From Cliona cf. orientalis (Eukaryota > Porifera > Demospongiae > Clionaida > Clionaidae), in contig OZ005696.1 in NCBI GenBank assembly GCA_963930775.1, forward strand, positions 3,410,001-3,474,000: DNA of 64,000 bases, read 5' to 3'. A program made the position numbers and the translations under genes. The notes beneath the pieces were generated by a model. The model was not told where the DNA came from and searched no databases. It saw nothing but the letters and a program-made list of their open reading frames with translations. Shown here piece after piece: positions 22,032 through 31,000 of this stretch. Each line of letters opens with the position of its first letter. Positions within the stretch are counted from its first letter, which is position 1.

Positions 22032-25000
22032 ATGTCGGGCCCTGTCCTAACGGGCAGATGCAACTACAGCCCCGATTGCAACAAGCACTTCATTTCAAGC
22101 GAGTACTTGAAAAGATACACTGATCCCGCAAGTAAGACGTTGTTAATCCCCCCAGAATTGCTATTCCACCGTACTGCCCCCCAGGACAGAACCTAGAGTC
22201 TAACCCTGCCATACAAACCGTTGAGATTTGCCCTGCTAACCTGATTTTGTACCCGAAACCCAGTCCCTGACCCCTCTCGTATATGGCGAGGTACCATGCA
22301 CAGTTTCTATGGATAGTTTTAGCGGGGACCACTTATAATAAATCGAAAATCTCTCTCTCCCTCAATACAAGAAGCCACAGTTAAGCATTGAATGACCTTT
22401 TGTGTATCCTTTGCCCTCTGCTGGGTATCAACTTCCTAATTATTCTTCCTGCCATGTGAAGTATTGTATGTACTCTGCTGGATTTCAACAACCTCCCTTA
22501 TTAGCAGTTAATCATGTGAGGTATTGCATGTACAATGACATCATACTGACTGACAGATTGTATACATGTCTGCAATAATACTTGTGATGATTACCCCACT
22601 CCAGATGATCCTATGAAGGTGCACAGCAAGTACCTTAAACACTGGCACAGCTTCTATAGCACCTATGGTGATGAGTTTGATCCCTCCAGTGCCACACTCT
22701 TGGAGCTGGGAGGAGGGCCTACCATTCACTCGCTGATTAGCGCCTGTCAGCACGTCTCCAAGATCACCTTCTCTGACTACGCTGACACTAACCGCAGGGA
22801 GATACAGCTGTGGAAGGACAACGACCCCAAATGTAAGAGAGTGTTAAAGTACTGTGTTTATAATTACGGTTTTAATTTTTGTGTGATTTTCTGGTAGAGG
22901 TCACCGTCGACATTAAGACACATAATATGAAAAGTTCTACAGTACAATGCAAATTTTCTTGTGTTTTAACTTAAACACAGTATGTGATGACTATTGATAA
23001 TAACATACATGTGTACATCATTATACATGTACATGTATGTAGGCATAAAATTAGTATTTCCTCTAGACTCCCAGTTGGTTTTGCTTTATTGACCCCACAA
23101 TAATAGTATTGTGTATGTCTGTGTGGGGGCTATGAATATGTAAACAGCTGCTCAATGATGAAAGTACGTAGTTCAGGCAGGGTTGCAGTGTGGCTACTTG
23201 CTCCATATTTGGGCATGGTGGCCTACAGAGATGATTAAGCGCAAGGTCAAGGGGCAGCAACTGTCAATACATGTTAAGTTTTGTTGTCTTATCTGAAATT
23301 ATTGCGACCTTTAAGTGAATAGCCAGTTGTTGTATGGAGTATCCACAATGTCCTTTCATGGCTTGGCTGTTCTTGTCTAAACAAACAACGTGGGTTGGTT
23401 GGTTTGGTTGGTCCCTTATGGAAAGGTAGCCATGATCATGTGATGATATGATGATCCTGAGATGGGTATACAAGTATACATGTAGCTGCAATTCACCATC
23501 AATCACATGGCCTAGCTCTAAGAATCCTTATATAGTGACTGATAGATTTCTGTGTGACCTCTGCTGCATTAGCTCTACCAGAACAATACCAACCTTATTG
23601 CCATACTCTCTCAGCTGCCTAATGATATTAAAGGTGCTCTGAAACGGAAGTCGAACGCCCCGCCTACGTTTTTGAATTCCTGACCCGTTTTTCAAAGCTC
23701 AAACCTGATTGGTCAATCCAACGTCATCGCGAAGGCGTGACAAAGACATATTATTTTCGCGCTCGCGCCGATTGAGAGGTGTGGCGCGCTATACGCGCGA
23801 GCGATCGACCACGAGGTGAAAGATGGCCCACGATCCTGCTGTAGCCAACATCAAGAGGGGTGGTAGGCGTCCAGGAGCTGGGAGAAAAAAACATCCAGAC
23901 AGAGGCAAGGATGTGCGCGTAAGAATATCGGAAACGCAGCACCTTCGTTGGAATGAGCTAAAAAATCTGAAAAAGCTTCCCAATGACGATGCCGTTGCCA
24001 AGTAGCTATCTTATGGATCTGGCTTCTGATGTTGAAGAGGATGAAAGCAGCGAAAAGTAAGCTACATACTAGTAGTATCACTGGAGTGAGTCATGACTGT
24101 AGTTTCCCGATTCCAGAGTGAACTTACCTACTGCATCAACCCCTGTCTCCAGAAGTAGCAGCAGAGGGAGGCATTTGCGAATCAGGGGTAGGATATCACA
24201 AGCGTGAGCTATGTATAATTTACCTTGTTTGATACACAATATTGATTTATTATAGCTAATAGAACCATCTTCATCAGATTATGATGTCAGTGCCATTGCC
24301 TCGTCACCATTAGTGGGAACTGCTGGGGACGAGGCCAGGATTGCTAGTGACCCTCGCACCTCTCTACTGCTCAGAAAGAGGTTTGGCTTAATGCCTACTT
24401 GATATTATTTATAATATTATAATAATTATGTTCCAAGTTTGCTGTCAGAGACTCTTCCATCTCTTCGTGGGGACCCATACACATCATCAGATGAAGACGA
24501 GACTTACCAACCTCCTGATGATAGTGAGAGCAATGATTCGGATGACAGCGATGATCTAGACAGAACACAGTAAGCTAAACTGACTTCCAGATATTACGCT
24601 TAACACTATCAAATTTGTATATAGCTTAGATGTTGCTCTGGCATATCTTAACAACAGTGGTAGTGAGCACGACTCTTCTGAAAGCGATTTTGAAAGGTAT
24701 ACGTGTACAATATTACTAATAGTATGACAACATGCATGTATGCTCCTGAATATCTAGACCAACGTCTGAAAGTGGTTCTGAGTCTGAACAAGATGACGAT
24801 TCCTCACATGCTTCAAGTTCAGGTTAGTCAGCACAATACAATGATATACAGTATTGTACATGCACATGCATATACATGTATTTTACTGTTTACCTCTATA
24901 GTTTTCTCAATGAACTCTCCCACTCTGGTTTCGATTCAGTGTGACAAGATCATTGTGAGCATGCCTCAGTTGCTACAGCTGGTACCGTCTACATGCCTAC

Positions 25001-28000
25001 ACCCTTCCTGTACCTCCAAACTATCTCATTCAACTCAGTTTAGGGGGTGTGGAGTGTATCTACACTTCAAATGTGATGTAGGACACACATACTCATGGTC
25101 GTCATCAGATGAGCATCTAGATAAGAGAGGGTATTCTATCCACTCAAACAATCTACTGCTTAGTGCTGCTTGTTTGCTGTCAGGAAATTGTTTCAGTAAG
25201 ATCTCACAGATGTTGGAATTCATGGGTATCAAAACTTTTTCAGAAAATATGTATTATAGGTGAGTGATTCTATGGTGTACTTAGCGTCGTCCCCAGGCCT
25301 TCTGAGGGGACGAGGCTGTAGTGTACTCTACATGCACATGACTTCACATCATTGCAGGTATCAGAGAGCTTACTTTTTCCAACCTATTGAATCTTACTGG
25401 AAGGATCGTCAAACTGAAATCCTGAATTCTCTTCAAGGAAAATCACTTATTTTATCCGGAGATGGCAGATGTGATTCACCTGGATTTTCAGCCATGTACT
25501 GTACGTACTCACTAATGGACACGGAAACGAAGTTGATACTCCACTCAGAAACTCTGAAGAGGTCTGAGGTAAATTTACATGTGGTTGTACATGGAGTATG
25601 TCTTAATTCCAATTGCAGCACATCCAAGTTTAGCTTATATGTACAGGGTGTAGGGTTTAGTTCAGGGGGATCACAGCTTGCCATATAATGTTATTATGGT
25701 TGTCCCCTCACTTTGAATCTGTAGTTTGCCTGCACCCTTGAAATTTGCTACTCTGAGGCATTTGCTAGCACTCCCTCTTGAGCGAAATCCTGAAATAAAC
25801 CCTATGTATGTATAGCTAGGGACATATCAGCTGTCAAAGTAGTGTTTACAGAAATGCTGGATATAGGATCATGTATTGAATGCAGGTTGAATACAAATCT
25901 ACAAACATGGAGGTTCTAGGACTGAAGCGGGCTTTGAACTTCTTGAAGGACAAAGTCAATATTTCTGAAATTGTGACTGATGCATCAACTACTGTCATAT
26001 CTTGCCTAGGTATATCACAATATCATACAATGAATTTTACATTTACAGCCGATAATGCTGGTATAAATTACAGCTAATGAGTTCCCAGAGTACCATCACA
26101 GCTTGGATGTCTGGCATAAGGCAAAGAAGCTCAAAAAGAGTGTATCTGAAGTTAGTTTTATGAAAGTATAGCATACAATGTCATGTATATATAATATATA
26201 ATATTACTATATTCCTCAGGCTGCCAAAGGTAAAGGGATGGGGATATTGGACATGTGGTCAAGCAAAATTATCAATCACTTCTGGTGGTCCTGCAGGACA
26301 TGTGATGATAATGTAGATGACCTAAAGGTACTATTTTTTTTTACCAAGTAAATCATTTTAATTATGTGAAATGGGGAATGAACTCCAGACATGTTGCTAC
26401 GGCAACGATGCCTGATTTTTTGGCTGTGCTGAGACAATTTAATTTGACATCCTCACCTATAGTAAATCATGCACACAATAACGCTCACATTACCTCCTAA
26501 TAATGTTATTTTGCAGACAAAATGGATAAGTGTACTTCATCACATATGCAATGAACACAAGTGGACTACAGGCCAGTGTGAGCATGAAGAATTGGAAGGG
26601 CCCCCTACTGAAAATGACAAAGTGATCCCATACTTCAAGAAGAATGAACCTCCTTTTCAGAATGTGCAAAAGATTGTTCTGAATCACAAGTGGCTTGAAA
26701 GTGTGAAGTATTATACACGTTTTAGGTGAGTTACCCCCTGACAAACGTATTCCTATTTGAAAATGTTTAAAATTAGACATACTGGGCTATTGGAAGTATT
26801 TCACAATTCTCTTCTGAGTTATGTGAGCAAGAGAGTTTCTCTAAGGTATGTGTGCACACACCAATAACTTTCACAGACTAAAAATATGCATTGATCTACT
26901 TGCATGTTTATTGACATGTGGGTAATTTATGAATAATAATTATTAAATTTATAGTGACCAGATTTATTTGCTGAGGATTATTCTTGCCATCATTGATCAC
27001 AATCACCATTAGTCTCGTCCCCAGACCCCACCCCCAAAAGGAGGAAAGGGTCTGGTACACATCGAGCGCTTTTTGGGTCTTGCTGACTTGGCATGTCTGA
27101 ATTCTGTCGCACCAATCAGATTCACGCCATGTGGCTTGCATGTGATTATCGTGTGACACCGCGCGCTAGCCGCCTATTGCTGCACGTGAGAGCCGCTGAT
27201 GCGTTGCCATGCCTATACGACGCGTTGTCATGACGATCACATGACATGCTGCATCCTGTGCGCCCCAAAAAGCGCTCGATGTGTACCAGACCCTTTCCTC
27301 CTTTTGGGGGTGGGGTCTGGGGACGAGACTAAATCACCATGTGAAAAGAGCGTATCGTCGAAGTGAGTCTGGCGAGATCCAGTACCACAGACTTTGGAGA
27401 AGACGGTCTAAGCACTGGGATGCTGTGCCAATGAAAGTGAAGAAAGACTATGCCTATGTTCCAGAGATATTGATGCTAATATTTCGATTCCGGGAGCGAT
27501 TAGACCAGCCTCTGCGTTCCATTGCAGGAAAGAAGAGAACTGGTTCTACCATCACACCAACCCCGCCTCCCAGTACATCCGAAATTATTAGAGCAAAGAA
27601 GTCTCGTTTTTCTGAATAACAGTCATTATCAAATTGTATGTAAATGAGCAACAGAATGACTATAAAATTTGATATGAGATAGTAAAATGTCAGGTCAGAG
27701 TTCATTTGAAAAAAATTTCAATACTCCCGAAATCCCATGTAAATTCCAGTTGGTGAAGGGTACCAGTGTCTGATGGCCCACACTACACATGATGGGATCA
27801 CTCTCCTGACTCCTCTCCCAAGGTACCCATAGTTCCATAGAATGTAGTGCCTGTATGCAATCTTGCGGTATTTAGCAGGTGAGTAATCGATTGGGTCAGC
27901 TCTAGTATCAGCATTATCCAAGATCCCAAGAGTAAGGACCATGTGGTTGACACACAGAGAGAAGAACTCCTCGTAGTTGGTTATGCATTTCACCTCCTGG

Positions 28001-31000
28001 CAGCAAACATTTTCTGTGGTGTTTCCCATCTCCTTACACTTCCCACAGACACACCACGAAGGACCACTTCCACGTGGATCATTGGGTCTTGGTTCATTCT
28101 CACCAGGCCCACTGACCAGCAAGCTCTTTGCTAGGCCAACCCCTCCATGTCCACACAACAGTCTATTACATAGTTGCTTTAGCTGTACCGGGTCTAAAGC
28201 GTCCACGTAGCTCTCCAGTTCAAGCTGCTGCTGCAGAAGAGACCTTTCTTCGGTGGGCAGGTGAGCGAGCTTATTCTTGCATGGTTTGTTCCTTGTTCCA
28301 CACTTGCACTGCTCTGTGCACTGAGTATTGACAGTACGGCAAGGACATTTTCTCTGGCAGCTGTTCTTACAGCCACAAGAAGTAGTCGATGGAGCTTGAG
28401 TTTCAGCCATGGGCCAGAGAAACACTGCTCGTGTTGTTGGCAGCTGTCCATGATCATAGCTCGATCGGCCTCGTGCTCGCGAACTTTTTACGCTACGATA
28501 ATATGTAACGCGCGCGCGCTTTAGCACTTTTACGCGTTGTTCGATTACGTAACGACTTCCGTTTCAGAGCACCTTTAAGTACCGTACATGTATGTACCTA
28601 ACCATACAGAAATCTGTTAGCAATTGTTGCAGTACTGGTAATCAAGTAACTAATGCAGCCAATTATGTGCAAGTCTACATGTACCTACAAGGGCCATATG
28701 CAATCTTTCTGCATATTATTATTATGCTTCACACATGATCGACATGCTTATATGAGGTCATGACCTTAGGTGCATTGGTTGATTTTGATTTCTGTGTTGT
28801 AGTAAAGAATGGTGTCCTAGTATCTTGGTATGGTAGAGATGGCTTTGAGTGATAATTGATCTCGTTCCCTGCCCTTGTCTTGTCTGCGAGAAAAGAATCT
28901 TGGATTCAATCAACAGTATTGACTCTTGCTTCAATTTATAGTCTAATTGAGCTCCATAGCTATGGTGATGCAGGGGCAAGCCCTCACATTATTTAATTGT
29001 GATCAGGTATTGTGTGTGTGAGATGATCATGTACCACCAATTATTGACTAAAAGATGAATAGTTGATATAAACGGAATGCTTGCATCATACATGTATACA
29101 TGCATACTGCCTCAATAAAGCCAGTTCACAAAGTGATGTAAGGCCTTAATTTGCGAAGTGATATTTAGCGATTTTTTACGACCTGATCAACGTAAGAATG
29201 CAGGAATGCCAGAATGGGATCCAAGTCTATTCTGGTGTTGCATTGCGCTCCTACAAGTGTCATTGTATTATGAAGTCAGATCAGAAACATAAAAATAAAC
29301 ACTCTTTGGTGACACTCGTAGGTCATGTGGGTGCAGGATTAATTCAGTACACCTGGTTGCTGCTGTGCATCATACATACATGTACATAATATACTATGTT
29401 TACGTGGACAGCATCACTACTGTAGCATAGTCACATGATTATATTGGTTAATTGGGGTGCATAAGATGGACAAACACTTCACTTGCCCCCCAGTTTGTGT
29501 ATTTCATCACAATAGTATTGTACATGTACAGTGTAACTACCCCCCTAGCTCCTCTCCCCCTCCTGGCCCCTTCCATCTCACTATCGTCAATTCAACTATT
29601 ACAGGTCACGACTGGACTCCCTACATCCGTCATGTTGTGTCGAACCTAGAGGGCAATTCCGACCCTGGTGCAGTGGACCAACGAACAACAGAACTAAGGA
29701 ACAAGATAGAGGAGATAGTTCTGTGCGACGTCAAGTCTGAAGACATGCTCGGTCCCTATCAGAAGCCATTCGACGTCGTGCACACCAACTTGTGCCTGGA
29801 GATAGTTTGCGAGACGGCTGCTGATTTTGTAGACGCTCTGTCTAACTTGAGAAAGCTTGTAAGACCAGGGGGATACCTGCTCTGTCTCACGGCCAAGGAG
29901 GGGTCGTGGTACACCTGCGCCGGGTTTGGTACCAAACTTCATCAGCTCTTCTTGAATGAGTCGGAGATTTTGAAAGCTTTCACGGATGCAGGTAAATGTG
30001 AAGTGGAATGTATACATGCCGTACGTACATGTATGTACATGTATCTATAACTTTCCAACATACATGTAAAGTATAGTGGGACATGGTTTGGTAGGAACTT
30101 GAGTTTATACATGTATTTAAGCTCTATACTTTATGATGAAAGGTACACATTGGGTAGAACGATGAGCGGAAAGTGATGGCATGCCATACGACTTTGCCTA
30201 CACTAGCTTTCAACAAACCGTAGAACTCGCTACACCTCAAAACTCCCACTATGCTTTTCTTTCCAATAAGCGCCCCCCTCAAATCTCGCCACATGGTAAA
30301 GGGTCAGCACCTATACAGAGTGCATGCAAATAGGCTCTTTATTGAGGCTGTGTGCTTGAACTGCATGGGCGAGCAAGGTCTGCATTGCAAAATTTAATAG
30401 TGGTGTCATCCCAGAGGAGGTTCGACAGGGTCAAAAGGTCACAATTAGCTAATTACACTATCTGATTTGAAATGTCAGCTGAAACCATGTAGACAAGGGC
30501 AGATCCTATTTAAAATCAAAATCTACATACAGGTATCTCAGAGTTGCATACAGGAATTTTTGCTGGGGGGGGGGGGGGAATCCCAGTGCACCCCCCCCCC
30601 CTTTTGTATGCAACCCTGTATCTCGTGTTGAAAGTCGGTTGTCGTTAGGCTTTTTATGCTGATTTCAACGTATGCGGATGTGATAGACTGGATATTTGTT
30701 TATGATAATTGATTTGTGCTATTCCCTAGCAGATGTGTGTCGATTATGTAATAGTGTTTGTACTTAGGCTAAAGTGTTAATAACTGATTTGTGCTTTGAT
30801 ATTATCATGTTTTGCTTAGGTAGATTGATTTGTACTTGAGCCAGCTAGGCAGAATAGCCTTTGTACTGTTAGGCTGGGGCCCTTTTTGACTCTTCAATGA
30901 TATGGGCCTCATCTTTGTGCTCAACTTTCTTTGTTTGTACCCTATAGCCTGAAATATTGGCGGAAATTAAATTTGGAGGTTGAGCCCAAAATCATTATTG

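Follow-up and report, generated by a model that had tools for sequence, protein, structure and literature searches.

A TTAA-flanked transposon of the sponge Cliona cf. orientalis carries a second gene with a P2X7-type ballast domain

Two convergent genes within one element

The window analysed here is a 64,000-nucleotide stretch of the genome of the sponge Cliona cf. orientalis (contig OZ005696.1, positions 3,410,001 to 3,474,000, forward strand), and corresponds to C8:3410001–3474000 in the genome that we scanned (G000; 216.8 Mb in 149 contigs). Positions 23628–28578 of the window form a single element, a DNA transposon bordered on both sides by a TTAA target-site duplication (23628–23631 and 28575–28578) and by a 22-bp terminal inverted repeat (TIR) with a 5'-AG start (23632–23653 on the plus strand and 28553–28574 on the minus strand), the two repeats being identical when inverted. 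They enclose a transposase gene on the plus strand and, convergent to it, a second gene on the minus strand, KolX, just as a sequence-only reading of the same DNA had proposed. An Rfam scan of the window matched nothing.

KolX is a single-exon gene whose intact frame (28410–27718, minus strand; previously noted as intact and convergent) encodes an accessory protein of 230 amino acids. Residues 115–230 (27721–28068, minus strand) make up a ballast domain that matches P2RX7_C (PF20478) at 88.5 bits against a Pfam gathering score of 23.5, and all seven zinc-binding cysteines of the P2X7 ballast align in KolX; the P2X7-type domain recognised from sequence alone was thus confirmed by profile search. 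The ballast domain of KolX is homologous to the vertebrate P2X7 cytoplasmic tail, with which it shares the seven cysteines, the fold and the residues R546 and R578; it differs in having no P2X channel attached. Compared between C8 and C3, the ballast regions show saturation at synonymous sites with a dN of 0.24, the pattern expected when selection preserves a protein; the near copies C8/C1 and C17/C11 hold too few changes to judge selection.

The N-terminal part of KolX (residues 12–47; 28270–28377, minus strand) holds a nine-cysteine cluster that had been called CXC-like. The resemblance in motif stands: CXC zinc clusters (Tesmin/TSO1, pre-SET CXC and CSRNP) also have nine cysteines, similarly ordered and at times in two units. 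No Pfam CXC model (PF03638 or PF18264) matched the window cluster, and the clusters of KolX relatives scored 7.4 and 15.4 bits, below the Pfam cut-offs of 23.5 and 23.3, so that by sequence the cluster appears to lie outside the curated CXC families. A search of the PDB gave one unrelated weak match each for the window cluster and for that of one relative.

The transposase gene has several exons separated by GT-AG introns, all on the plus strand. Its probable first coding part, with a basic stretch after the ATG, is an open frame at 23823–24005 that by eye resembles the N-terminus of P0042; acidic 5' exons with tentative joins follow up to 24901. The exon at 24902–25259 was placed by GT-AG borders and homologues, and those at 25358–25568 (first catalytic D, in GDGRCDSP) and 25886–26009 (second catalytic D, in VTDAS) by borders and homologue alignment. 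There follow exons at 26074–26150 (the DxxH motif, DVWH), 26220–26327 and 26517–26725 (the CxxC and CxH halves of a zinc-finger motif), 26777–26845 (a candidate catalytic E, in HTGLLEVFH) and 26955–27619. This last exon is interrupted in the window copy by a nested 322-bp inverted-repeat element (27010–27331). The insertion introduces a stop codon in frame at 27010, so that the transposase of this copy is broken, a correction to the earlier description of the gene as simply multi-exon.

Copies of the element in the genome

A search for the element's end, taken as TTAA and 20 further bases, gave 54 genome sites with at most three mismatches, compared with none for a reversed-pattern control. 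Pairing these sites within 8 kb gave 19 pairs, 3 long and 16 short, and left 16 sites without a partner. The long copies, on C8 (4951 bp, the window copy), C2 (4612 bp) and C1 (5075 bp), each have a P2RX7_C match inside. Over 4612 aligned bases the C8 and C2 copies show 7 differences (99.85% identical); the older copy on C1 (97.5% identical) has a decayed KolX (two overlapping match pieces, one with a stop) and a stop in the transposase core. Six stretches with flanks of the long copies had nothing in common beyond 25 bp of repeat; the long copies therefore arose by separate insertions, recently so in the case of the C8/C2 pair.

At 340–402 bp, the 16 short copies could hold neither gene. Copies lacking the minus-strand gene had been named as evidence against the sequence-only reading, and among the 19 pairs these are found only as copies that have neither gene; all of the long ones, decay on C1 aside, carry both. 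The short pairs are non-autonomous, and the sole one compared (C1:26454635–26455004) is about 80–82% like the two ends of the element.

Ballast domains and transposases are paired across the genome

A search of the genome with P2RX7_C gave 35 candidates, all of which were scored, leaving 25 matches; a transposase search gave 83 matches in 33 clusters. A transposase match lies 111–1874 bp from 23 of the 25 ballast matches, in convergent order in all 23 cases. The binomial chance of such pairing under random placement is about 4e-68, a figure that is not a literal probability since the copies share ancestry. Eight further loci (L039–L042 and L050–L053) were read for ends, and TTAA-flanked inverted ends, all AG-initial, surround both genes at six of them, whereas the control gave none at all eight.

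One mobile unit therefore carries the two convergent genes, both being present in all three long copies and at most related loci, and the proposal that a TTAA transposon has the ballast gene as its second gene is right. Because 23 of 25 matches pair with a transposase, almost all of the ballast domains detected in this genome are transposon domains.

KolX occurs in the genome in at least three types: window-like; a CC-x6-His type, where P2X7 has CC-x6-Cys, at C17, C1:1.68 Mb, L045 and L008; and a type in two parts, whose N-terminus is acidic. The CC-x6-His arrangement, read in KolX of L051, L053, L052, L045 and L008, is a possible ligand swap at cysteines that Rump 2020 (PMC7016195) terms remarkably conserved. 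In L039–L042, KolX has an EPYxYEP-like acidic N-terminus and a ballast domain split over two open stretches; three of these four loci have TTAA-AGGG ends, and their elements form a second KolX-bearing lineage beside that of the window. Many weaker matches of about 50 residues could be taken for a 'half ballast' of truncated KolX, an idea that was dropped when the zinc half was found in a separate upstream open stretch at the four loci read.

KolX of L052 (C1:1671900–1678100) and L045 (C1:33573500–33574500) has two CXC-like clusters before the ballast domain, which in L045 sit on neighbouring frames. Paired cysteine units of a similar kind are known from Tesmin/LIN54-type proteins.

The element as a Kolobok transposon

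Taken as a whole, the element is very probably a cut-and-paste DNA transposon of the Kolobok superfamily, of the KolX-bearing kind (Kol0). Kolobok elements have ends of the form 5'-RR ... YY-3' and a C/DxxH motif after the second D (PMC9587614), and between DxxH and E a zinc-finger motif of which the third position, C, is the most conserved. Here the duplicated target is TTAA, the ends are AG...CT, and the transposase has a DDD/E arrangement with DxxH and a zinc-finger motif. D154, D221 and D242xxH245 align among the homologues, with H239, D242 and H245 the same in each of 21 rows; the candidate E is seen and lies outside the list of residues kept in at least 90% of rows, some of which stop earlier. 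At motif level, C313 and H315 of the zinc finger are in that list and the two cysteines of its CxxC half are outside it. The predicted fold of the homologue P0040 matches DDE transposases; the transposase alignment used for modelling held 27 of 97 homologues. PF20700 was precomputed for a number of homologues, and was not used as hmmscan of P0042 gave no family.

The second gene, with its ballast fold, is a feature of Kol0. Elements of the Kolobok-1_XT type (PMC9587614) likewise combine TTAA, 5'-RR ends, a DDE transposase with DxxH and zinc-finger motif, and a second gene with a P2X7 ballast fold; the sponge elements differ as new families, with KolX proteins that have one or two CXC-like clusters or an acidic N-terminus. 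They are thus new families of a known kind, and the finding is an independent re-observation of a published result, the link between KolX and P2X7 being already in print (Kojima & Bao 2022). A literature search on KolX together with Kolobok, which did not cover preprints, gave nothing beyond that paper. The terms 'CXC', 'Tesmin' and 'cysteine-rich' are absent from its main text (PMC9587614; supplements were outside this check), and we make no claim of novelty for the cluster.

A number of observations weigh against these assignments. The name Kol0 is provisional, being based on the KolX gene and the motifs, and in Pfam the transposase had no significant family, its best match being MULE at an E value of 0.022, below cut-off. 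Ten of the 33 transposase clusters lack a P2RX7_C match in the surrounding 6 kb, a number that drops to nine with the KolX piece that a more sensitive search found at C1:21.8 Mb, and two of the 25 ballast matches lie more than 6 kb from any transposase match: C1:32702422 (L049), and C1:34317077, which has five stops and a transposase match 6.4 kb off. At the six loci with ends, the two ends differ over 14 positions by 0 mismatches in three, 1 in one and 3 in two, and TIR searches at L041 and L053 found none. The CXC-like cluster matched no related solved structure, whether searched alone or as a 10-row profile, and in the KolX model (36 of 39 relatives aligned; P0027, P0038 and P0039 dropped) it reached a pLDDT of only 41–61. 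Finally, of the five guanosine contacts of rat P2X7 KolX keeps two, R546 and R578, with H547, R574 and K583 changed. With three of five contacts different, guanine-nucleotide binding by KolX seems unlikely on sequence grounds; Rump 2020 (PMC7016195) holds that the sponge ballast domain may still bind GDP. Invertebrate ballast proteins keep the same R546 and R578 (Rump 2020), so this loss of contacts does not exclude membership of PF20478.

The minus-strand frame could instead be a host ballast gene, of the ZCD or nanor-like sort, that this one transposon acquired or that merely happens to sit inside it. Rump 2020 (PMC7016195) regards such genes as ancient animal genes with conserved neighbours, sponge included, and the proteins are like KolX in being short, in having a C-terminal ballast and in keeping only R546 and R578 of the guanosine contacts; they differ in being taken there as animal genes, 'transpos' occurring 0 times in the main text. 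A host gene would hardly be expected within TIRs together with a transposase in every long copy, at unrelated sites, and at most of the other loci read, or in the same convergent order next to nearly all ballast matches; even the exception L049 is a decayed relative of the transposon-borne gene of C17/C11. We consider this origin very improbable, and rejected it on the genome-wide association and the TIRs around both genes. Less probable again, to the point of being negligible, is that the element is piggyBac-like: piggyBac shares the TTAA target, and a few piggyBac families with a KolX-like C-terminus are reported by Kojima & Bao 2022 (PMC9587614), but the 5'-AG ends are of the Kolobok form, the DxxH motif is present, Pfam gave no piggyBac match up to an E value of 10, and KolX keeps all seven cysteines, which are mostly lost in those piggyBac proteins (PMC9587614). 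The piggyBac identity was discarded on the Pfam result, the motif and the ends, in favour of Kolobok.

Origin of the P2X7 tail

The sequence-only reading had placed the ballast domain mainly in P2X7 and called its origin a puzzle, a view that is out of date (Rump 2020; Kojima & Bao 2022). In Rump 2020 (PMC7016195) ballast (ZCD) proteins are described across animals as genes with shared neighbours, sponge included. Kojima & Bao 2022 (PMC9587614) concluded that the P2X7 tail derives from a KolX transposon gene, which is the route that the sequence-only reading suggested without naming that paper. Following this published inference, the P2X7 tail was most likely gained through capture of a KolX gene. 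The sponge element is a clean multi-copy example of that claim, in a genome that offers both a recent copy pair and several divergent KolX families.

Our ballast tree supports no direction, from transposon to receptor or the reverse. It holds 30 chosen rows, 10 from this genome, 14 of 39 database KolX and 6 mammalian P2X7, and is without vertebrate KolX, Nanor and non-mammalian P2X7; among the 120 of 142 matches listed, named rows were mammals. P2X7 forms a single clade (100/99) on a long branch, its placement is weak (76/58), and the tree program cautioned about long-branch attraction.

P2X_receptor matches in the genome number 24, on C10 and at C2:4.61 Mb. None of the ballast domains is fused to a P2X channel detected in the genome, and where the two share a contig, the shortest distance between a ballast match and P2X exons is about 455 kb. 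P2X receptor exons stand in a tandem cluster at C10:212595–227697, which suggests several P2X gene copies in this animal.

A possible role for KolX

The anatomy of the element suggests a mechanism in which the DDE transposase would recognise the 22-bp ends and cut and paste at TTAA. KolX may aid transposition as a cofactor rather than a catalyst, its nine-cysteine cluster most likely contacting DNA and its zinc-stabilised ballast domain most likely contacting the transposase or a host protein. We put forward this particular accessory role tentatively, rating it somewhat below an even chance; with this element the contribution of KolX to transposition can be tested, and there is a hint of a DNA-binding half of the protein that is missing from the P2X7 tail.

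It is rather unlikely, if still worth weighing, that KolX acts instead on the host cell for the benefit of the transposon, for example in silencing or defence. The scores of the CXC-like cluster below curated cut-offs would suit such a role, and the ballast domain is reused in P2X7 for protein-level functions; the cluster is nonetheless of CXC-like form, doubled at two loci, and clusters of the CXC kind are usually tied to DNA. A broader proposal, that KolX is a bipartite zinc protein with its CXC-like part on the transposon ends and its ballast docking the transposase, and that most invertebrate 'host' ballast/ZCD genes are transposon genes, we regard as speculative and doubtful; were it true, the P2X7 tail would be a former docking domain of a transposition complex.

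The nested insertion

The inverted-repeat element in the last transposase exon has perfect arms of 69 bp, is flanked by a 9-bp duplication (AATCACCAT, at 27001–27009 and 27332–27340) and is not present in the C2 and C1 copies. It has at least 41 near full-length copies in the genome at 97–100% identity, and was therefore probably active recently.
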